NCBI GenBank assembly: GCA_023078555.1
Contig: CM041199.1
Coordinates: 1,302,001 to 1,366,000, forward strand
Reading direction: 5' to 3'
DNA: 64,000 nt
Source: Ulva prolifera
Lineage: Eukaryota; Chlorophyta; Ulvophyceae; Ulvales; Ulvaceae
Shown here: in pieces, positions 13,901 to 32,850 of the stretch
Numbering within the stretch: the first letter of the stretch is position 1
How the letters are laid out: the number at the start of each line of letters is the position of its first letter
Made by a program: the position numbers and the translations under genes
The notes under the pieces: generated by a model
The model's database searches: none
What the model saw: only the letters and a program-made list of their open reading frames with translations
What the model was told of the DNA's origin: nothing

Positions 13901-16900
13901 TGAAGCAGTTGCAGGCGGAGGTGGAGGCGCAGCGGGACCTCATCAACGCGCAGGCCGCCGGCGTCGCCGCGCGCGCGCTGCAGGTGAAGGAGGCCCAGCA
14001 CGCGCTAGCTGGGGCGCAGCACACAGCGCAGCGCGCACAGCAGGAGTGCGGGGACGTGCGGCAGGTGAGATGAGATGCGCTGTGATTCATGAAAATCACA
14101 CCCGCAGTATATACTGGATCCACACATATCGGATTTGTAAAATCAGATCAGATCGGATCATCCGGCCATCTTCTGAGGACCTGACTGGTTGAGTCGGCTG
14201 GGGCGCTTGCATGTTTGGTGGATGACGGGTGCGCTACATATGTATAGCATACACATAGCGTGCAGGAGCTGCGGCACCGGCAGGAGGAGCTGATACAGGC
14301 GCAGCAGCAGCTGATCGAGGTGGATCGGCAGCGGCGCGAGGCCTCCGGAGCCCTCCGAGACGCGCAGCACGAGACCGCTCGCCTGCAGACCCAGGCTAAA
14401 GCGCACAGCACGGACATTGCAGCCGTGAGGGACGAGCTCGCAAGCACCCGGGCGGCGCTGCGGGAGTGCCGTGATGCTGTGGCCGAGGTGCGTCCCCAAA
14501 TGCATGCCGCAGGGCGGCCTGCAGGTAGTGCTGGCCGACGCCGCTCTCCGCCGAGTTCCGGGGAGGGTGCATGCATGTGGTGTGCAGCGCGCATGCGTCA
14601 ACCCTTCGGCATTCATGGAGCGACTTTCAGGCGATGGTCGCAGCAGAGAAGGCAGAGGATGCGCGGCGTGGCGCGGAGGAGCGCGGCACGATGGCGGCTG
14701 AGCGTGCCAAAGCCGCACAGGCGCGCGTCACGCAGCAGCTGTCAGTCGTGTCAACAGCCCGTGAGCGCCGCGCGGCTGCCGAGGCGGCCGCGGCGGAGGC
14801 CGAGGCACGCGCCGACAGCATCGCACGGCGGCTGCTGGCCGTGGAGGCAGCCGCTGCTGACGCACGCACGCGCGCACAGACCGCCGTGGACATCCGGGGG
14901 AGGCTGGTCGACGAGGCTAATGCGGCGCAAGAGGAGGCTCGGCAGCAGCGGGCGCGGGTGCGGGCCTCCAGGCTGCGCGCTGCGCCTGCGGAGTGGGAGG
15001 CGGACTGGCATTGTGTGCATGCATGAGCGCTTCTGCCCAGACGGTTATCGTTGAAGGAATCAAACCTGGCCATGATGTGTCCCGTTATTGACTTCCGAGG
15101 AGTGACAATCGGAACAGACAACATAGAGAGTCTGGTAGTGGGACATTTGCTCAGGCTTCTCATTGCTGCATTCTGCTGGCCCAGGCTGGTGAGTCGGTTC
15201 GAAAGGGTTCAGATCGGGTCCGGCTGGACAGTATACATACGTACGTGTTATGTGCTACGGGGTCCACAGCGTACCGCAGCATGCGCGGCTCCCGGCTGTA
15301 CACACTCCCTGGCCTGCGCACAGCGCCAGGCTGTTGCTGTGGCTGTGCGCACTGCGCTGCATGCGGCTTCTACATCCTGGCCCTGCCGTGCGCGTGGTGA
15401 ATATCGGTCACTATGGGCTTGCTAATGCATGTCCGGCAAGGCTGCCACAGTGCGAGTGCGCCACGTGGGTGTGTGTGTCTGCATGCATGAGTACATAACC
15501 ACATGCATGTTGGTGTGCAGGCGGATGCGGCGCTGCAGGAGGTCAGGGTAGGGGAGGTGGAGCGACTGCGCGCGCGCGAGGAGCTGCGCGCTGCTCTGGC
15601 CAGCGTTGACGTCCTCATCGACGAGGTACGCCGCGCATGCATGCTTGTGATGCGTGTGAATGCGCGCACGCCCGTGCTCGGAGAGAGCGCAGCCGCGCAC
15701 TGCACCTGGCCACACCCGGCTGGGCTATGCATCTCATGCATGAGTGGCCTGAACGTGCCTGTTCAGGCTTGCGGTTGGCAGACCTCTCTCCGATCGAAGT
15801 GAATGTGCACGGAGAGAGTGTGCCTGTGTGCATGCATTGATTGTCACGCGGGTGGCGATATGCTGCGGCTGAGCAGCGCACGTACAGGTGCCCAGCCTAG
15901 CCATAGCGCCACAGCAAACTCACACGCAGTAGGGCCACGCCCGGGCACAGTGCTGATGTGATTCGGCTGAGAGATGTTGCTGTAAGATGCGCACGTTTCT
16001 GCCTTCCTGCCCAACTTTGTCCTTGTAATGCATAGCGGGGATTAAACAATCACGTAGCAGACACTGCGTTGTTACACTGTGTGAGTATGCTCGCATGATG
16101 GGGCCGGTGTGCCAGTGCTCATGAGCCCTCCGGCCACCCCCGGCACCTTCGGTTCGCCGCTGCATCATGCATGCGCTGCAGTACCACGCACGCTGCAGCT
16201 GTCTGTCGTGCAGAAGATGAGCTTGTCCGGGATGCTGGCGCGTGTGCTGGAGCGCATCGAGGAGATGCGGGCCGAGGCCGTGGAGGCGGCGGCGCGGGAG
16301 GCGGCACTACGTGAGCATGTCGCGGCGCAGGACGCCGACATCGCTGCCCTGGGGGCAGAGGTGGAGCGCCTGCAGATCCTTGAGGCTGAGGTGCTCGCCC
16401 CCCTTCTCCCCCCCTCCCCCCGTGATGACCTGCAGTCGGCCGCTTCCACAAACTCCCCCAGAAAAAACCCACCACTAGATCGAACACATCCCGGGGCCCT
16501 CAACTTCAGGCACCAGCCCCTGTCAATCTAAGAGATACTTGGGATCTGAGTGGTGCATGGCATTCGAAGGAGATCGTGGTACTGTGCCGGACGGCAGCGC
16601 GCAGACCCTTGGCCGGCAGCATGTACAGTCGCTTCGCAGCGAACCGGCTCTAGCGAGATCCACTGTCATGCCGGTGATAGCTGCTCATGCGATGACTGTG
16701 GCGGTCATGGCCGGCTGGCCGTGATGTGGTTATTCGTCTCGGGCCGTTGTACCCGCGCAGCGGCTTGCATGTGTGGCGCACATGTGATCGGCGGGGTTCG
16801 CAATCATGTGTTATGCGGGGACCACGCATCTCAGTGCTGTGGTGCGTTTGAAGAAGTCCGAGGCCTAGGGCACATGGCCAACGCTCTTGCAGAGCCAGGC

Positions 16901-19900: not shown

Positions 19901-22107
19901 GTTTTTTTGCTTGACTAGCGACATACGGGCAGCTTTCTGTCAGTCTGCATTGTTTGCCTCTTACGGCCGTGATGTGTGTCAGTCTTTGCCTTGCAGCAAT
20001 CATGGTGAGTTGCCCAGATCACAGACGCCAGGCCACCACCATGTGGCAGCTGGCACATGCATTCCCTGCTTTAATGAAGCACCTTCAAGCAGGAGCTTTC
20101 GCTCTTGCCAGCTTTCAAATGGACAAAGTCAGTCATAAATACAAGGAGACATGAGGAGCACAGGCCTCATGCCCCTGCAATGCAAAACTCTATTGAGTTT
20201 GGCTTTGGGAACCAGCTGGTGTGCAATTCACTTGACACACACCAAGCTTGACCATTGAATTTTTCAGGTATCACCAGCAACATTGTGTATGACTCATTAT
20301 TGTTAAAAGCAAGTTAACAAGCCTCTGTTACCCCCTGCATGCCAGTGCACAGCTGCACAGAAAAACTGTTTCTGGCCAGTGGCATGGCTTGCAAGCGAAG
20401 GCAGCTTCAATGGCTCTCCCCGCACTCGTCACTGTGTTACAAGGACAAAGCAAGCAAGGCAGGTAGCACCGCAAGCAACAACCAGGGGAACCACACACCA
20501 CGCAACAAGCCACAACAAGCCACACGCAGCACACATCAACACACCCACGCAACGTCAGCTTCAGCTCGTCACTGTGCGGAGGTGCACTCATCCACATGAC
20601 ACGGCACTTGCTAAAACCAGCATGGTCAGACGTGGCAACACTGTATTCAACACTATATTTCTACGGGGGCACTGGGCACTGTTCAGTGCTGAGACCTTGA
20701 ACAGCACTTGGCCAAGCTGCATCTGTGATCATACATGCGCGCGTTCATGTACACATGCATCCCCCATGGCCTGCTGTATACGCAGAAGTGCAGAAGCGTG
20801 GATGCAGGCAGCTCACTCATTGCTATCGGCCCGCACGGCCTCCACAATGCCGTCACTTCCCAGCATGCTCTCTACAGCCGCGCCTGCTCCGGCCGCAGCC
20901 CCTCCAGAGCAATCCCCCCCTGCAGCCCCCTCGCAGCCTGGCCCTGTGGCCCCGACGCCGCCCCAGGCACAGCCGCTGCCACACGCGTACCCCGGTTCTG
21001 GGGATCCCGTCGGTACGGCAGCTGCGTCTGAGCCTGGCACAGCAGGGAACAGCGTGACGGCTCCTGCGGTCCTACAGCCGGTGGCGAGCGCAGCAGACAG
21101 CGCATCAGGTGGTGGAGGCAGCGCGCAGCTCGCGCGGCGGCTCGTGCTGACGGCTGCGGCCGAGCGGCTGGCGCTGGAGGACGAACGCGCGGCCGCGGCC
21201 GGGTACGTGGCGCTGATGGAACGGGAGGAAGCGCTGGCGGCGGCGGTGCGGCGGCTGGCGGAGGTGCGTGCCGCGCTCGCCGCGCAGCACGCAGCGACGG
21301 CGGCCGCGCAGGAGGCAGCCGCGCGGGAGGCGGCGCAGCTGCAGGCGATGACGGAGCGCCTGCGCGCGGAGAGGTGCGGCTGAACACTACAAGGATAACG
21401 GCGGCGAGGCGGGCAGCAGCACCGTGAATCCAGCGAGCTTCGCATCAACATGACCACCGATCCAACCAAACACCCACACCAGGCCGTACGTGTGCATGGC
21501 CGCGCATGCATGTGTACATCCATCTGGCGGCCTTACCTCGTGCCGCGTCGCCGCCGTACTGTATGTTCGGGCGGACTGTGTTTGCCGCTGACTCCTCTGT
21601 CCCTGATGCGCTGAGTCTGCTTGTGTGTGGACAGACCAGAGTGGTGCGCTGCATAGTGTCAGGGCTCGCATGCATGATGGCAGGGGTGGCTACAGGGACC
21701 AGGCGCTCATGCATGAGGACCGTGCCGTTCAGCAGCGCATCCTGGTGGAGCACTACAGCCGCGTGCTCGCGGAGCGCCTCGTGCGGCAGCAGGTCGCCGT
21801 CAATGCTGCTGCCGCCGCCTCTGGCCGCACGCTGGCCTTCGTCTCGGTCGCCGTGCAGACGAGCGCGGCGGCCGGGGCGGCGGCCCCGCCGCCCGCCACA
21901 GCCGCGGAGGCCTCTGAAGGCGGGCTGAGCGTGGCCTCAGGGGCGAACGGTGCGGGCGCGGGCGTGGGCGAGGGGGCAGTGATGGGCGCGGCGCTGCTGC
22001 TGCGGGACAGGGAGGCGTTCCAGATGCTGCTGGACGCGCTGCACGCTCTGCCGCGGCAGTGGCTGCTGTCGCTGCCGCCGCGGCTGCTGCGGGTGCTCGC
22101 TGGGGAG
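7991..22107 (+). CDS. Large coiled-coil protein, unidentified (first part of a longer gene model)
   Basis: Chain of exons with matching phases: 7991-8681, 9171-9411, 13113-13316, 13900-14064, 14266-14487, 14631-14957, 15521-15625, 16214-16390, 17055-17285, 17851-18551, 19043-19133, 20808-21373, 21684-22107. Most translate to heptad-rich Ala/Glu/Arg/Gln helices, for example LQKLLETSEERNGALVEQ, QELRHRQEELIQAQQQLIEV and ERIEEMRAEAVEAAAREAAL. Exons 17851-18551 and 20808-21373 mix disordered Pro/Ala-rich stretches with helices. No catalytic domain is seen in this part, so a structural or scaffolding role (cytoskeleton, cilium or centrosome) is only a guess. Donors are mostly GTGCGN and several acceptors are TGCATGCAG. 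The 5' end is uncertain: exon 7991 could begin later (about 8206) and upstream exons may exist. The last donor is phase 0 and fits exon 22547 of the next entry. Confidence 0.6.
9458..9501. repeat. Short hairpin in intron
   Basis: Two 20-bp arms (9458-9477 and 9482-9501) around a 4-base loop, complementary except one position. It lies just inside the 3.7-kb intron after exon 9171-9411. Function unknown. Confidence 0.8.
11872..12425 (-). mobile_element. Non-LTR retrotransposon (LINE) 3' fragment, family A, minus copy
   Basis: The minus strand encodes the C-terminal part of a non-LTR reverse-transcriptase ORF: FRAVAQEKLGDIMFIPPG, GDVSVVNPCAG, YSFVPLSHETHGRLGRPAMN and LSVALCKGNALVLRVGLQ. This DVSVxxP ... 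F.P...E..GRLG.PA ... R.LS.AL..GN pattern is the usual C-terminus of such ORFs in algae and protists. It ends RARPSAMTA, followed by a short 3' UTR. Only the last 170 or so codons are present, so it is 5'-truncated. It sits in the intron 9412-13112. Confidence 0.75.
12463..12947 (+). mobile_element. Non-LTR retrotransposon (LINE) 3' fragment, family A, plus copy
   Basis: The same C-terminal ORF segment as the minus copy, identical in translation from GDPLCIGDVSVVNP to SAMTA, then the 3' UTR and an end in CCTTTGTAA followed by a (TACA)n-like tail. With the minus copy it makes an inverted repeat with arms of about 430 bp and roughly 150 bp between them. Both copies lie in one intron. Confidence 0.75.
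12952..13078 (+). mobile_element. Family A LINE 3' tail, second tandem copy
   Basis: Repeats the last 20 or so codons and the 3' UTR of the copy just upstream (GGCCTAGTGCCATG, GGCAACGGCTCG, CCTTTGTAACTACATA) with a few substitutions. It is either a separate severely truncated insertion or a tail duplication. Confidence 0.7.
15991..16028 (+). mobile_element. Family C retroposon 3' end fragment
   Basis: Ends CTTTGTCCTTGTAA preceded by GCCTTCCTGCCC, a diverged copy of the family C terminus. Intronic in the coiled-coil gene. No duplication could be read, so it is old or rearranged. Confidence 0.45.
20437..20564 (-). mobile_element. Family C retroposon, 128 bp, with 12-bp target-site duplication
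   Basis: On the plus strand the insert starts TTACAAGGACAAAG, carries GGTAGCACCGC, and is then A/C-rich with very little T. CTCGTCACTGTG occurs at 20425-20436 and again at 20565-20576, flanking it. So it is a retroposon inserted in minus orientation, 5'-truncated, with 3' end TTGTAA. It lies in the intron before exon 20808. Confidence 0.75.
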
Positions 22108-22546
22108 GTGCGCCACGGCGGCAGGTTGTGAACGGGGCTGCCATGCTGACGTCATGTTGTGCATCGGTGGCGTGGTTGAATGCGTGGCGGAGGATGGGAC
22201 TGAGGTGAGCAGCAGCGCGTACTGCCTCAAATGCAATTCTTCACTGAGAGTCTTCAGTGCATCAACTGCATGAGATGTGGTGCCTGCCCCTGCTGCCCAG
22301 AAACGGGCATCGTGGCCTGGCTTGTATGGGCATGCAGGCTGGGGCGCTTGTGGCCGCTGACAGCGCCGATGCCCGTGCAGTCCCAGCCATGTGCAGTTTC
22401 GCATGCATGACTTTCGACGGCAAAGGGGGCTGCATGCGCAGCCTGGAATACATAGCCACGCACATTGGTAGCACATACGGCTCATGCATGTTGCAAGTGA
22501 ATCTGAACAGAACCTGTTGCGCATGGTACCATGCATACATATGCAG

Positions 22547-25500
22547 GGCTTTGTGCTGGACGACCACCGCAGGCCCGCTGGGCTGGGCCCAGGCGGAATC
22601 CTGACACAGCATGGCAGCACAGCAGTCGCCTCGCTTTCCCGGACGCAGCACAGTACCGACCCCCCTGCGCTCGCAAACACCCTGTCAGCATCCATCCTCG
22701 CAGCTGGCAGCCTTGCCTCTGGCATCGCAGCGGAGCACAGCGCAGCACGCAGCATGGATGCGATCGCGGAGGGCCAGAAACGGCACCAAGGGCGCTTCCG
22801 CACAGCGCGCAAGCTGCCGCTGCATCCGAGCCGTGAGACGAGCGCGTCCACTGTCCGCCGCACAGCCAGCGTGCAGCCAGCGGCGGGCAGCGCGCGCAGC
22901 ACGGCCGCGGACCATCGGCAGGTGTCCTTCCAGCTTCAGCAGGACGCCGATGCGGAGGGGCTGGCGGTTGTATTTTCAGAACCTTCCCTTGAGAGCCTTC
23001 CAGATGCTTCCGCTGGTATCGGCGCCGCGACATCGAACAGCCGGGCAGACGGGCCTGCCACTATTTTAGATCGCGCGACCGCGATACAAGAACAGTTGCG
23101 GCCGCGGCAGCTGGGGTCGGGCAGCGGCGCCACGAGAGACCGTGCCGCAGACGTGTCATGGAAGGATCTGGAAGCATGTTACGGGGCGTCCTCAGCCCAG
23201 GCGGCCACGGTTGGCGCCGCGGAGCCCACAAAGACTGCTACTCAGACATGGTTGGCCGGGGGCGCAAAGCCGCGGCCACAGACATCGTTGGGGTTGCGGA
23301 GGCAGGACACGCACGTGCTGGAGACGACCGCGGACGGGCGGAATCTCCTGAGGCCACGCACCGCACCGCAGTGGCCGAGGGCGGCGGCGCGGCCGCCGCG
23401 GCCGCGCTTCGCGCCGGCCGTGTTGGAAGACGGGGCCTCCCGCCGCAGCCAATCCGCACGGCGTGGCTCCGCGGCCCCGGAGGGCTTCGATACGTCCACA
23501 GTGCTGACTGGATCTTCGTGTGTAGCTCGTGAGCCCATGACGCCGCCGGTGCTCTTGGAGCGTGACGCAGGGGAGGTGGCTTCGGTGAGCACACAGGAGT
23601 GGGACAGTCGCGTCATGCATGCTGTTCAGGAGCACCTGCGCCCTGTGGGCCTTGGGCAGCCGCCACGGCTTCAGCCTGCTCCACATAGGGTGTCCGGCAA
23701 AACTTATCAGCCCGCATGTGTATCACAGTACATGCATGGGCAGAATGCATGGGTGGCGATAGAGGACCCGGCAAACGCAACTAACGGCAGAGACGTAGCA
23801 GAGCATCTTCCAGCGCGGAAATCGCGCGATGCGCGCATGCAGCTGGGGCGGGGTGATGGCCTCACAGACGCCGAGCGGTCTCACAGGACTGCTCCGGCGA
23901 CGGCAGCAGCGACACTCGCGCCAGCACCTGCGACAGGCGTCTCCGCAGAGCCTCCGGCAGCGCCTGCGGTGCGGGTGGCGCTGCGGGGCGTTCCCCCCCA
24001 TGCGCTGCTTCCACCCGCGGCCGCCGTCGCAGTGGCTGCTGTCGCCGCGGCGCCTGGGGGCGCCGCCGCGCTAGCATCAGTCAGCCGCGGCGCCGTGCCG
24101 CATGCGCTCACGGCGGTGGGAGGTGACCTCGGTGTCGCGATCGCCGGGCGCTGCGGCAGGGTCGCCGTGGCGACCCCCAGTTGGGCGCACGGCGCCGCTG
24201 CGGCGGTTGGTGGTGGGCAGCATGGCACCGTCCACTCGGCATCGGTAACCCTGGACATGCTGCTGCTGGATGCATGCCGCACGCTCGGCTGTTTGGTGCC
24301 GCCGCTGCTGTATGTGCGGGGCGACCCCGTGGCGAGGGCGTACTACCTATCTGTCCCGATGGAGGGCGGGGTGGAACTGCATTCGGAGGGGGGGCGCCGG
24401 GCGGTGGCCAGCTGGCGGCTGCAGCCCGCCGTCGTGGTCACGTCTGCGGCGCTGGACGCGCTGACTCAGCCCGAGCTGCGGGCGTTGTTCGGTGCGATGC
24501 TAACGCACGCTGCCGCACCCTGTGCTGCCGGCGTGGATCTCGCCGCGCCTGCAGACTGCTCCGCGGAGGCGCCATCGCAGGCCGCTGGCCGAAGCGTGCA
24601 TTTGGCGGCAGAGCTGGATCGTGTGGCGAGCCGCAGCGGGGCCCCTCTCGAGCGGCTCGATGCGTCCTGGTTGCATGCACGCCATGCATGCACTACCGGC
24701 GTGCAAGCGCAGGAGCGGGGAGGTGTGCGGCAGCGTGGGCTGGCTGCGATTGGTGCTGTCGCGACGGTCGCGGCCGTGGCGGATCTTGCCCCCGGAGCGC
24801 TGGAGGAGCTGATGGCCGGGTGGGGCCGGTCTGAGGGGGCAGAGGCGGCGGAGGGGCCGTCCAGGAGTGCGCTGGGCGGCATGCGTGCGGCGGCCAAGCG
24901 GCAGCTCGGGCCGGCGCTGAGGCTGGCACAGCAGCTGCTGCGGTTCGCTGAAGACCGTGGCGCGATGCTGGTGGCACAGGTGCGGTGGGGATGCCTGGTC
25001 AGCCATGGTGCGGTTTGTGCAATCACATACACACGCACGTTCACACTTTAAAGACCAATTGGTGAAGGGCATGGCTACTCTCGGGAGGGGGGGGGGGGGG
25101 GGGGGGGATGACAAACTCTGACATTTCTAACATGAGCATCGCTCGCTACCGCCTCATGCATGCGCTGCTCTTGTGCAGGACTGCGGAGTCGTTGAGAGCA
25201 TGATCGTCAAGATGGCGTGCGGGGCGCCCGGCCTCTGCCGCCACGTGTCTGTTGAGTCGCTGCGCGCCGCTGCGGCCAAACTCCCACCGCACGCCCTCGA
25301 CTCCCCGCTGCTTGCCGCCATGGCCGCCGCGACCGGCCAGAGCACCGCCGCGTGCGACGCAGCCCTGCGCCGCTGCGGCGCCGCTGCCGGGAGTCCCTCT
25401 GCGGACGCGGCTGGAACCGGTGGACGTGGTGAGGGCGTGGCCACGGGCGACATCACGGTTGTGCGCCTGGCGGCGTTGCGGCGGTGGGTGGACAGCGGGG

Positions 25501-26215
25501 AGTACTCGAGGGTGGTCAAGTCGTGCACCACTGAAGCTACTGAAGAGGTGCGCCGGAGTGCAGCAGGACATAGCATGTGCATAGTGTGCCGGCAGCTGCA
25601 TGGGGCATGCCCAAGCTATGAATCTGGCACATGTCACGACCGGGCACCGCCACAGCACACCTTGCAAGGTGTCTTTAGTTTTGAGGACTGTCCTGTGTGA
25701 TTACCACGCATGAATGCCAGCCAGTAGTGCTCCTGAGGTCTGACCTATGCATACGTATGACTATCACGCATGACTTGTTTCTTCGTGCACCTGTCCACCA
25801 GCCGTGGATCAGTCTGTGTCATTGCGGCAACTGCTGCGCAGGCTGCATGTACGATGTACGTGGTGGCTGTAGCACAGCGCCGACAGGTGGGCGGGCTGCC
25901 ATGATCCAGATGCGCGACTTTGCGCTGCATTTGTTTGCATACACGTGCAGCTGTCCCTGCATTCATCCGCATCTGCGCTGGCAGTCCATCTGGCTGTGAT
26001 TCGTTCATCGCTGTTGTGCAACCGGCTTCTGCGGACGTGCTTCGGTCTGCGGGTGCGGTGCCGGCAGGTGGTTTTTGAGCGAGGCTCATGCATGAGTGCA
26101 GGTGCAAAGCAGAGAAGCCAGGCTGGAAACGGAGGCCGTGGCGGCGATGGCTGCTGTTGTTCAACAGCTGAGCATCGATGACGGGATGTGGCCACAGTGG
26201 CCCACGGAGGGCTGA
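22547..26215 (+). CDS. M48 peptidase-like domain protein without the HExxH motif (C-terminal part of the large gene)
   Basis: Exons 22547-24979, 25179-25547 and 26102-26215, all phase 0. The first 500 or so residues are disordered and Ser/Ala/Arg-rich. From about 24250 the sequence follows plant and algal M48-type peptidases: LLYVRGDPVARAYYLSV (family: LYVRQ.PVPNAYTLAI), VVVTSAALDALTQPELRALF, a later LLRFAEDRGAMLVAQ (family: LRAAELTCDRAALLVAQ), VVESMIVKMACGAPGL and LAALRRWVDSGEYSRVVKS (family: VLRAREIDEWS.S.EY..L). Where the family has HELGH, codons 24494-24508 read AMLTH: first zinc His and catalytic Glu are gone, so it should be inactive as a zinc protease. The third-ligand region is shortened but keeps a Glu. 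It could be a separate gene; phases allow fusion with the upstream coiled coil. Confidence 0.7.
25086..25107. repeat. Poly-G tract in intron
   Basis: A run of about 20 G in the intron 24980-25178. Such runs are prone to sequencing and replication length errors. Confidence 0.9.
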
Positions 26216-26819: not shown

Positions 26820-29800
26820 TCAGGATTTTTTGGATTTGCTCTTCTTGGGCTTGCTCTTCTTGCCTTCGTCGGGATCATCCTTGACCTTTTTGTCCTTCTT
26901 CTCTTTCTTCTCCTTCTTGTCCTTCTTACTCTTCTTGCTGTCATGATGTACCTCGTCACCTTGATCCTCTCCACCTTGGCTCTTTTCCTTCTTGCCTTTT
27001 TTGTCCCTTTTCTCCTTCTTTTCTTTCTTTGCCTTCTTATCCTTCTTTGGGCTCTTTCCAGGACCTACCGATCCTGCGAGATTCCAGTCCTTGCAACTCC
27101 AGCTGGTACCACATAAACGTGTACATCCTGAGACATGATTGGTTGTTCTGCCAATCCCAGATGCAGGCTGCATATTGCATCCACTGCAAGCACTTGCGTA
27201 CGATTCACCAGGCATGGCATAGCGACATCATCCCTGCGAGGACACCGTGTTGCAGCCGTCCACGTCATCAAATCCCCCTCCCCCACGCGCCTCTGTCAAT
27301 GCACACACGCGGCATACGTACTGCACACACTCGCAGCTCGTCACATGCCAAGGCATCGCACCGTCATCCTCCGAGTCCACGCCGGCAGGCACGACCTCGC
27401 CAGACCCCCAAGCGACCGGCGGCCGCACCACGTCGGCCCCTCTCGAGGCCTGCCTTGCCCCCGCCGGCACCTGCCCGACCACAGGGCTGTCCACGAGCTC
27501 GTCGTCACCCCAGGGGGTAACCCCCGCCGCGGCCACGGGGGACACGGGCGGGGAGACGGAGAAGTCGGTCGCGTCGCGCAGCACGCGGCTGCTGCCGGGG
27601 ATGTCCACAGCGACGTCGGCAGAGGCCGCCGCGGCCGGCGGCGCAGCCTCCGGCATCACGCTATTGTTTGCTGCACAGTGTGGGGTGCATCCTGTTATGG
27701 CCACACTGGTGGCGCGAACTGCACCTATCGTTGGGCGAACATCAACATCGCCTGGTTCCGGCAGCAGTGTCAGTAGCTTCATTGCCAACATGGAGGAAAC
27801 TAGGCTGGCGGGTCGAATTGTTTAACAATCTGACTCAACAGCGCATCACCATCTGATGGCCAGCTTCACCGCTGCCGGTGGGGCTTGTGCTGTATCGCAA
27901 AGTCTATCTGGGGGAGGTGGGGGATGAGCAGAAGCGCACGGCTGCGGGGCGGCGGCGTCGGGGGCAGCACGTCCGCAAACCCCACGAGGCCGCGGGCGGC
28001 TGCCTCTCCCACGAAGGCGCGTGCCTCCTCCTGCAGCACCGCGTCGCCGGCGGCCCAGACCGCGGCGAGCGCGCTGGCTACGGCAGCCGCGTCGTGCCCC
28101 CCGAGGCCGCCGGTCGCCTGCAGCGTGGCGTACGCCGCGGCGATCTCTGCACGGCCGCCCACGACCGCCGCCGCGAGCATCTGCACCTCTAACGCCGCCC
28201 TTGCGCACATTGAAGCGTACGTGTGGGCAGCGCTGCGGCGAAACGCGTGGACCATGTTGTGCGGCACGCAGGTGTAAAGAAGAACACAGCGCAGGCGATG
28301 AAGCTTGTTTTGCTGGGCGCATGTGGTGTATGCAGAGGTCACAGTACCATGCGGGGGACGCCATGCGGGGACACCTGCGAGTACGCGCCCAGCAGCGAGG
28401 GATCATGGGACACAGGGGGCGGCGGCAGGGCGGCAGGGCGGGAGTCGAACCTGCTTCTGCGTGATGACCCGGCAGCCGACGACGTGGGCCAGCGCCGCGG
28501 CGCACGCGATCAGCGCGGCCATGAGCAGGCCGCCCCAGGAGGCAATGCCGCCGGCGGAGAGGAGGGAGGCGCAGGTGTCCCGGCCGAGGGCGTCGCACTG
28601 CATGCATTGGCTCAGCGGCGCCCCCGGGCCTGTGTCCGCCTGCACGGAGCAGAGCCCGGTTGTCCGGAGACGTCGATGTGAAGAACGGATACGGCTGAGT
28701 AGATCCAGGTGTACAATGCTTTACTTGACACCCCCGTGGACGCAGTGCTGTGCTGATGTGTTGGAGCGGGAGGCCGGGTGCGATGTGGCGCATGTGTGAG
28801 GCGCTATGCAGGAGAGGTGGATGCTTGCAAGCCCCACTGGCGGGGAGGCTCTGTCTGGAAGGACATGCGCGCATGTGATTGTGTTATATGCAGTGGGCGC
28901 TCTTGAGTAATGCTTGGCCACACAGTGCTGATGCTGATTGCAAACAAGATGCAAATTCGCCTGCCACAGCGCCAGCTGAGCGCTGAGCCTGGCATGAGAG
29001 ACGGGTGTAACTTCCAGATCAGGGCTTGCAACAGTGTCAGTGGCAGTGCAGAGATGGGAGCATCGTCACTCTTCACAGGCTGCCACATTCTTGTGAGGGC
29101 ATCTATCATCACACAGAAGAGGTATTCGCGAGACGCCAGAAGCTGGGCTGGGAGGGGTTAAGTGTTCCCCTGGTTCGTTGATGCGATCGTAGTGTGGCAA
29201 CCTTGAGTCTGTTGGCACCCACAGGGCATGAGAGACCAATGGGCCATGGCAGAGCGCACCGCATCACATGAGTCCTCTACTGCACATGGACAGTCATTAC
29301 AGCCTCTGAATCCAAACTGTATTGCTGAACATCGAGCTTCTGCGCTATAGTAAACCATTGTGTAGCTCACGACCATCGCTGCGCCGGTGACTGCCGTAGT
29401 AGCAGCATGGAGGGTCAGGAACAACGGGGTCATGTTTACGTATCCAACTACTCCAGTCAGCCCGATTAGACCGTATCCTGCCCATAGCGTAGTTGTCAAA
29501 GAGTCGCCAATGCTGTGGTCATGCCGTAGGATAAACAGCCAAACAATTATGCCAGGTGCACTCGAAAGTGACAAAAGCACGAGGAAACCGATGATCGCCT
29601 GCACACACACACACACACACACACACTCGCAGATTCCTTGCCCACGTTACAAAATTGCAGGCGCGTGTCTGCAACATCACGAGCAGGTGGAACCACAGTT
29701 TCACACGGCTTTTACCAAGCAGTCAACCGAGAGACTTGCAAGACGAAAATCTTACGTCACGATGTCAACGAAGAGCGCACTGGAATCTGCAATTGGTTTA

Positions 29801-31044: not shown

Positions 31045-32850
31045 ATGCGATGCAACCTGGTATCAGCATTCACAGCCTCTTGCTTGACCATTATGGTGGC
31101 AAATGTGCCGTCTGCAACAGGTGTGATCCCAGTAGACGTGAGTGAACGAGCCTCTGCAGAACTCTGCACGTCAACAACCCACGTTACTCGTGCTGTGGGC
31201 AGCTATAGACTTCTACAATGCCGGTTAGACCGTCTAAGTGGCCTTATTGATCGAATGCTGTCATCGCGATGTTTTTTCATTTGGTGCAATCTTGTTCTCG
31301 AGGAGAGCACGGTGCGTGGCGTCCTAGGCTCGTGAACATCTAACACCCCGCTGGCCAGTATACCGCTCACACGAGGACGAGGTCACACTCACTCATTTGT
31401 ACATACACCGTTCACTGACGGTGGCTGCGTGGGCAGCGCCGAGCCAACAGACGTGGGCCAGCTGTGGACAGATGCCACGACGTGTACGTAAGGCCGGTAC
31501 CGACAGTGCAGTGCACCGGCGCGAGGCCTTTATTTTCCCTGTACTGCTCTCACCTAGGTGAATCCTGCGACACTTGTACAGTAGGAACGTATCATGCATA
31601 TCTGTCAATTCGATGTGTAAGCTGATCTGATGTAACAGCCTGATGCGCGGGACACAATCGGTTACGGCTCACCGCTGAACGGCGTAGCCCGGCTGCAATT
31701 TTGACCCGAGTCGGCAAAGGAATTTGAGGCACACAGTCACAGTGTATTTCGGCCCCGCGAATGCGTCGTGTGCTGCTGCCACAGGTGTGGGAAGTCGTTT
31801 TGCGAACGCAGAGGATCAAAGCTGACTTCTGACGCTGCAGGTGACGTGAGCTTGATATGTCAGCCGGACTGTTGTCCGGTGGGACAATTTTGTTGCGGAA
31901 CATTTTGCGAAGCTGATGGTGCTCGGCCATATGATTCCTGCATCCCCGTGTCCGATGGATGTTGCACGAACCGCTCCAACATCTGTGCCAGTCGCAACCT
32001 GCTCCCGCCAGCTAATACACCCAGAGATGTGACATCGCCGGACTCCGTCGTCACAGACGGAAGCTTCCGCGGCAGCGCAGGCACTAGGGGCTTTGTTGTC
32101 GACACAGGGCAAGCGGAAGAGCCATCAGCCCTTCAACTCGAATCTGGTGCAGCCATCGAGAGCCCCTGCAAGTCAGATTGCTGCATTACCGGCACTTTTT
32201 GCTGTGGTAGCACATGCCGTGAAGACCGTCTCGCACCTGCGTTGACTTGTCCTGCCAAGCCAGACTGCTGCAGTGATCCTTTGCTCCCATGTTTTGGTTT
32301 TCGAGCCACCAGCCCTCCCATCGTCCCGGATGCACCGCTCCCAACACCCATGCCGTCATCCAGCCCTCCATCATCAGTTCCTGAGCCCGCTGCTCAGAGT
32401 CCATCTCCGCTCTTCATCGAGCCCAGCTTCCCCGATGCTGCCCCAGAGATAGCAGATCCTGCACCACAGCCAGCCATACCCCCAGGAACTCCTTTCGCTG
32501 TATCAAGTGAATGCCCAGATGGCTGTGAGCCGTGGTGGGGCAGGTGTGCGGGGCACACCTATGCAGGCCCTGGCTGCTGTACGGCAGGCTCCACCTGCAT
32601 CTTCAAGAACGCAGGATACTCAAACTGTGTACCTGATGAGCTCGATCCAACATGCTCTGTCTCGGGCGGCTCCACTGGTGTTGCAGGCCGCTACTGCCAG
32701 TGTGCAGGGTCACAGTATTTCGGGCCACGCACGTGTGGAGCTGGCTTGGACTGCATTCAAGTCAACCCTTTCTACTCACAGTGCCGGCCTGTGTGTGAGG
32801 CGAGCATCCGTTCCAGTCGAGGGCTAGGGCCCGCAGGTGTTCTCAGCTGA
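31045..32850 (+). CDS. Secreted Cys-rich protein with two C-terminal CBM1 modules
   Basis: Exons 31045-31120 and 31841-32850, phase 1, about 361 aa. Exon 1 is a signal peptide (MRCNLVSAFTASCLTIMVAN..PSATG). Two tandem Cys-rich units follow (CQPDCCPVGQFCCGTFC and CKSDCCITGTFCCGSTC, each with a later CC pair), joined by Ser/Thr/Pro-rich linkers. Near the C-terminus are two family 1 carbohydrate-binding modules: about 32527-32640 (WGRCAGHTYAGPGCC ... NAGYSNCVP) and 32690-32796 (YCQCAGSQYFGPRTCG ... NPFYSQCRP). CBM1 is a disulfide-bonded fold of about 36 residues that binds crystalline cellulose through aromatic side chains; it is best known in fungi. No catalytic domain is present, so a wall-attached or cellulose-tethering role is inferred. 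A second good donor (GTGAGT at 31138) does not fit the reading frame of exon 2. Confidence 0.82.

Follow-up and report, generated by a model that had tools for sequence, protein, structure and literature searches.

In a 64,000-nucleotide stretch of Ulva prolifera DNA (GCA_023078555.1, contig CM041199.1, positions 1,302,001 to 1,366,000; here called the window, with positions counted from its first letter), a gene on the forward strand ends in an M48-like domain that is most likely a homolog of the PGM48 lineage without a catalytic site. The favoured explanation, considered reasonably probable, is that the gene is nuclear and has several exons, and that the domain at its C-terminal end is of cyanobacterial M48 descent and has turned into a pseudopeptidase with a binding role. 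An earlier reading made from the letters alone (the sequence-only reading) had described an M48-like domain here that had lost its zinc-protease signature and was maintained as a pseudoenzyme rather than left as a relic.

The loss of the signature is borne out by alignment of the joined domain, 409 amino acids from three exons, with bacterial relatives, both cyanobacterial and other. The main alignment contains the window domain and 95 of the 98 relatives fetched (L032, L033 and the duplicate L034 were left out); 78 of the 95 look active, and residue numbers follow the relative L002. H95, E96, H99, E143 and H212 are invariant in 78/78 active-looking relatives, and the window carries A, M, H, R and G at these positions, so that four of the five catalytic or zinc-binding residues are changed in the main alignment and three of the five in an alternative reading discussed below. 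The letters AMLTH stand at the HELGH position in every alignment. H212 was equated by its motif with H246 of BepA, which is described as the fourth zinc ligand, with HPx4R conserved across PF01435, in the available part of PMC7950410. Since the catalytic Glu is replaced, as are two or three of the four residues expected to bind zinc, the domain is very unlikely to cut peptides. Outside these positions, the window retains L45, P50, P72, D147, R148, L152, R218, W225 and Y231. The spacing around the third ligand, which the sequence-only reading took to be shortened, is actually longer: 145 residues separate the AMLTH His from the third-ligand position in the main alignment, 115 in the alternatives and 148 when the Glu of FAED is counted, compared with 44-51 from the HExxH His to the third ligand in the relatives (80 of the 98 fetched, in which both motifs were read).

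An active M48 gene could in principle be masked by an error in the gene model or the assembly. Both flanks of AMLTH match in one frame of one exon, and of the other two forward frames at this site one contains a stop and the other is open without HExxH; a skipped exon or frameshift behind AMLTH is therefore unlikely. In the unspliced forward frames of the window, HExxH occurs only at 99, 5202 and 63621, and the nearest instance on the minus strand is at 20735. No exon supplying HExxH, a possibility raised by the sequence-only reading, thus lies within reach in the unspliced forward frames, from 5202 to 63621, an intron-split motif not having been sought. Such a split HExxH, or a further intron concealed in the insert between the motifs, is what a masked active gene would depend on, and this explanation is regarded as very improbable.

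The M48-like domain is homologous to a cyanobacterial M48 subfamily, at a level above chance. An approximate M48 probe served as the seed and yielded 32 bacterial loci in genome contigs, of which 30 were used to build a profile (L032 and L033 have broken frames); the profile member L002 reaches 67.9 bits with Pfam Peptidase_M48, for which the cut-off is 20.3. The joined domain reaches 48.2 bits (E 7.6e-14) with this 30-row bacterial profile, whereas 200 shuffles reach 8.7 at most, and four collinear blocks span profile positions 37-251 of 268. When the same profile was run against the window's 1701 open reading frames (ORFs) of 20 residues or more, the ORF at 25131-25697 ranked first (23.7 bits, E 2.3e-6) and the ORF at 22472-25048 second (13.3 bits). 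A sequence search of the PDB with the joined domain returned only a chance-level match, a cytochrome b-c1 subunit at E 0.46. Additionally, a scan of viral contigs with patterns from the domain gave no matching stretch, and a scan with Rfam gave nothing at gathering scores.

Group-specific profiles point to one lineage within this subfamily, which a search at E<=1e-15 detected in 83 of 194 cyanobacterial genomes, each with between one and three matches. The cyanobacterial sample comprised the 30 top-scoring loci and 36 picked by score band, and the relatives were assembled by hand into five groups: group 1 (n=47), group 2 (n=17), other active bacteria (n=13), group 3a (n=14) and group 3b (n=3), with L079 assigned to none. 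The window domain scores 46.3 bits with the group 1 profile, 39.0 with group 2, 31.4 with the other active bacteria, 21.9 with group 3a and 10.9 with group 3b; in a control of 500 shuffles the best score was 2.5 bits with group 1 and at most 5.8 with any group. A tree of 72 rows, obtained after thinning at 90% identity, joins the window domain with group 1 at 89/92, a value that is not starred. Further evidence comes from the C-terminus. The motif GxWxxW closes 44/47 group 1 proteins and 0/47 others, and the window protein ends in GMWPQWPTEG, within the last exon (26102-26215). Shuffling produces GxWxxW by chance at 1e-4 for the whole domain and 6e-4 for the last exon, values that are somewhat too small because the motif was picked after an alignment had been inspected. 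This C-terminal motif places the domain in the PGM48-like lineage. Group 1 is presumably the family of plant PGM48, and the subfamily of the window domain is probably that of plant PGM48 as well.

Groups 3a (L072-L074, L080-L090) and 3b (L075-L077) are degenerate cyanobacterial M48 paralogs. Taken together, they have E143 changed in 16/17, mostly to Lys or Arg, H212 in 17/17, H99 in 12/17 and H95 in 7/17, while the catalytic Glu is kept in 17/17. Group 3a forms a single branch (100/100; 10 rows after thinning) with a mean column identity of 75%, and it was found in 15 of 194 cyanobacterial genomes at E<=1e-60, 14 of these 15 having supplied the proteins of the model. The five group 3a members that were scanned all lie above the Pfam M48 cut-off. 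No paper on a degenerate cyanobacterial paralog appeared among the best-ranked literature matches listed.

The window domain could have descended from such an already degenerate paralog, in which case its losses would be ancient and inherited. Like the window in the main alignment, group 3a has lost H212 (14/14) and has Lys or Arg for E143 (13/14); both belong to the same wider subfamily, WVDSG is common to the window and most group 3a members, and a topology uniting the two is not rejected (p-value of the approximately unbiased test 0.392). In contrast, the group 3a profile scores less than half as many bits as that of group 1, group 3a is a separate branch with GxWxxW in 0/14 members, and its catalytic Glu is kept in 14/14, where the window has Met. 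An origin in group 3a was set aside, not refuted, on its lower profile score and missing GxWxxW, and is held to be improbable.

An M48 fold of the domain is plausible. AlphaFold2 was applied to the contiguous exon part (249 amino acids) together with 21 bacterial rows, and the model had a mean predicted local distance difference test score (pLDDT) of 63.8. In blocks of ten residues, pLDDT was 81-95 at residues 1-40, 61-90 and 211-249; it was 60-68 at residues 41-60 and below 50 at residues 99-185. A Foldseek comparison with the PDB placed chains of abylysin, HtpX, ZMPSTE24 and selecase at ranks 1-6, with probabilities of 0.63-0.97. The M48 fold expected by the sequence-only reading is thus predicted for the core when bacterial rows guide the model, and not with confidence when they are removed. 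Since the confident model was guided by M48 relatives, the fold is plausible rather than independently proven.

The gene model provides a continuous frame for this domain. An ORF of 859 codons without a stop (22472-25048, forward strand) holds the long exon 22547-24979, compared with a maximum of 590 codons in 300 first-order Markov sequences of 8 kb each modelled on the region. The coding-like score of this exon, 214.3, is the highest of the window, the training of the score having partly included the same exon, and its donor reads CAG/GTGCGG. The joins 24979/25179 and 25547/26102 are both in phase 0 with GT-AG ends, in agreement with the open and consistently spliced frame claimed by the sequence-only reading, and the three blocks that it quoted all lie in frame in the spliced forward-strand gene. 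Both exons of its two-exon model hold, and a third, 26102-26215, is needed to complete the domain; this exon was proposed before its C-terminal motif was recognised. Upstream, the putative exon 21696-22107 lies in the frame of the ORF 21607-22131 with the donor GAG/GTGCGC, and the region 21634-22125 has a coding-like score of 68.0, the training of which partly overlaps it. A score of 75.1 was obtained for 20826-21374, outside the training set, and the exon 20826-21373 would be part of the same gene, which is presumably expressed. The features are collected in Table 1.

Table 1. Features of the M48-like gene in the window
Positions	Strand	Feature	Basis
20826..21373	+	Possible further upstream exon, Ala-rich	Coiled-coil-like stretch by eye; donor GAGAG/GTGCGG
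21696..22107	+	Probable exon upstream in this gene, beginning at 21663 or 21696	Phase-0 join to 22547
22547..24979	+	Long exon, with an Ala-rich stretch (22547-24232) followed by the N-terminal segment of the M48-like domain (24233-24979)	Open frame
24233..24979	+	M48-like core: helix, strands, AMLTH active-site helix, third-ligand helix ending EDRGAMLVAQ	Profile blocks 1, 2 and part of 3
24494..24508	+	AMLTH replacing HExxH: His1 to Ala, catalytic Glu to Met, His2 kept	All alignments
24941..24943	+	Arg at the third zinc-ligand position (Glu in 78/78 active-looking relatives)	Main alignment
24980..25178	+	Intron, phase 0, with a G run	GT...AG ends; GC 0.578, below exons
25179..25547	+	Exon with the last part of the third-ligand helix region and the blocks VVESMIVKMACGAPGL and RRWVDSGEYSRVVKS	Profile match of its ORF
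25446..25448	+	Plug His to Gly, adjacent Pro to Asp, Arg kept (G-D-x4-R for HPx4R)	Main alignment
25548..26101	+	Intron, phase 0	GT...AG ends; GC 0.574
26102..26215	+	Last exon and stop TGA	In-phase open frame
26183..26200	+	GMWPQW, which fits the GxWxxW of PGM48-like bacterial proteins	C-terminal motif

Several results weigh against a maintained pseudopeptidase of M48 descent. Single profile blocks are weak, at 3.9-16.1 bits each. Searches of Pfam with the 409-residue domain or the long exon returned no family at E<=10, and the gathering cut-off of PF01435 was not reached, so that the Peptidase_M48 search proposed by the sequence-only reading gave no match; NCBIfam likewise returned no model at E<=10 for the joined domain. 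Because the domain lies below the detection of both collections at this threshold, the Pfam check alone would miss the homology. Modelling without an alignment gave a pLDDT of 44.5, with a similar order of helices and strands. The 36 Foldseek matches at E<=10 included none at E<=0.001 (best 0.47), and from rank 7 onward unrelated folds such as Hsp90 occur among further zincins.

The loss of the third ligand also depends on the alignment, because both alternative alignments place a Glu of the insert at E143. One of these two, A3, contains 21 of the 30 relatives and is trimmed at the end of the third-ligand motif. In the alternative alignments, the insert supplies a Trp, Arg, Ala and Glu that pair with W138, R140, A142 and E143, and a further insert of 30 residues precedes the conserved Asp-Arg, leaving 33 residues from Glu to Asp; ExxxD is intact in 0/3 alignments. 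Alignment A2, in which the exon alone was compared with full-length relatives, was discarded because its C-terminal part had slid onto the wrong region. Near-invariant residues away from the active site are lost too, namely N61, F183, Q186 and P213, together with W138 and A142 in the main alignment. In that alignment 2/7 active-site positions are kept versus 8/13 others, a count that leaves out one doubtful His column, and the contrast is not significant (Fisher p 0.35); the alternative alignment, with 3/7 versus 10/13 kept, gives p 0.17, also not significant. Finally, the window domain has a deviant composition and sits on a very long branch (3.36 changes per column).

This long branch and deviant composition keep in play an explanation in which other parts of the gene account for its expression while the M48-like end, having no function of its own, drifts and decays. 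The loss of N61, F183 and Q186, the large insert between the motifs and the nonsignificant retention contrast are all consistent with such drift. The frame, by contrast, is open throughout, the splicing is in phase 0, four profile blocks keep their order and the C-terminal GxWxxW is still there. Decay is on these grounds judged unlikely, though with a substantial share of the probability, and maintenance of the domain as a pseudoenzyme is plausible. The claim of the sequence-only reading that the domain is maintained and not a relic is partly supported: the open frame, the phases of the splice sites, the collinear blocks and the motif at the C-terminus speak for it, the retention contrast does not.

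Under the favoured explanation of a pseudopeptidase that binds, the ancestor would be a member of the cyanobacterial M48 subfamily that was probably also the source of the plastoglobule peptidase PGM48. The core blocks would have stayed recognisable, whereas the catalytic Glu would have gone. Of the four positions that bind zinc, two or three would be lost as well: all alignments agree on His1 and the plug His, and the main alignment adds the third-ligand Glu, the others its ExxxD setting. The domain should then hold no catalytic zinc and cut no peptides. Instead, the groove beside the edge strand would hold a partner or an unfolded segment, and the role would be that of an adaptor, a chaperone or a regulator of an active M48 partner. 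The domain would be anchored by the long Ala-rich stretch on its N-terminal side, and the protein may reside in the plastid. The domain might also be imagined as a different kind of enzyme that relies on the remaining His together with other residues, since the motif retains His2 and two alignments allow a Glu at the third-ligand position. His1, the catalytic Glu and the plug His are nevertheless gone in every alignment covering them, we know of no chemistry with this residue set, and such an enzyme is considered scarcely probable.

A binding role, as the favoured explanation has it, is the best-supported one by analogy with sugar-beet RF1-Oma1. This M48 protein carries HQVGH for HExxH, and its active paralog, unlike RF1-Oma1, cannot bind preSATP6 or form a 200 kDa complex, according to the available part of PMC6894571. 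The two cases share a broken catalytic motif in an M48 domain of the green lineage; they differ in that RF1-Oma1 belongs to the OMA1 lineage, is mitochondrial and, in that part of the source, is reported to have only the HExxH Glu changed, whereas the window domain has lost more. PGM48 (AT3G27110) is portrayed in the accessible portions of PMC9725166 and PMC8760853 as a protease of plastoglobules with CCD4 as a target, and as a proposed regulator of PES1, PES2 and CCD4. The likeness of the window domain to PGM48 runs through the cyanobacterial relatives of group 1, with which it shares the best profile score, the tree position and the C-terminal GxWxxW. In contrast to PGM48, described in those portions as a Zn protease, the window domain lacks HExxH, the plug His and the ExxxD setting, and it ends a longer, Ala-rich protein. 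The inactive FtsHi proteins, which act in plastid protein import complexes by the account in the consulted part of PMC11266112, offer a further comparison: FtsHi1-5 are likewise relatives of plastid metallopeptidases retained without an active site, but they belong to family M41 (AAA+) and have ATPase domains. M48 is unmentioned in the consulted part of this review of inactive metallopeptidases, and no M48 pseudopeptidase of PGM48 or cyanobacterial type was among the best-ranked literature matches listed. M48 pseudopeptidases as such are already known, RF1-Oma1 being an example.

Other features were observed elsewhere in the window. A short ORF with a long terminal Lys-rich tract lies directly downstream of the gene on the opposite strand (26820-27227, minus). 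A Cys-rich ORF at 31705-32847 (plus) contains two stretches of Pfam CBM_1, a fungal-type cellulose-binding family (E 2.2e-8), the sole family above cut-off when ten other long ORFs of the window were searched against Pfam. The coiled-coil-like ORF at 14248-15051 (plus) gave only sub-threshold Pfam matches, the best being Fez1 at 22.2 bits (cut-off 34.4). In addition, ATGCATGC is strongly enriched in the window, with 53 matches on both strands against 11.7 expected and a maximum of 20 in 100 shuffles.

Should selection be preserving the domain, the PGM48 fold would serve a purpose that does not involve cutting, in a lineage with a part in regulating senescence and the lipid droplets of plastids. 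A broader idea, offered tentatively and held to be somewhat doubtful, is that M48 proteins of the cyanobacterial and plastid kind have been made into non-cutting binders repeatedly, once in the PGM48-like branch seen here and separately in group 3a. If this were true, the M48 groove would, together with RF1-Oma1, be a recurrent scaffold for holding substrates, and a dead M48 protein might pair with an active paralog in the same cell. The degenerate cyanobacterial paralogs would provide a tractable bacterial setting in which the function of a dead M48 protein could be approached.

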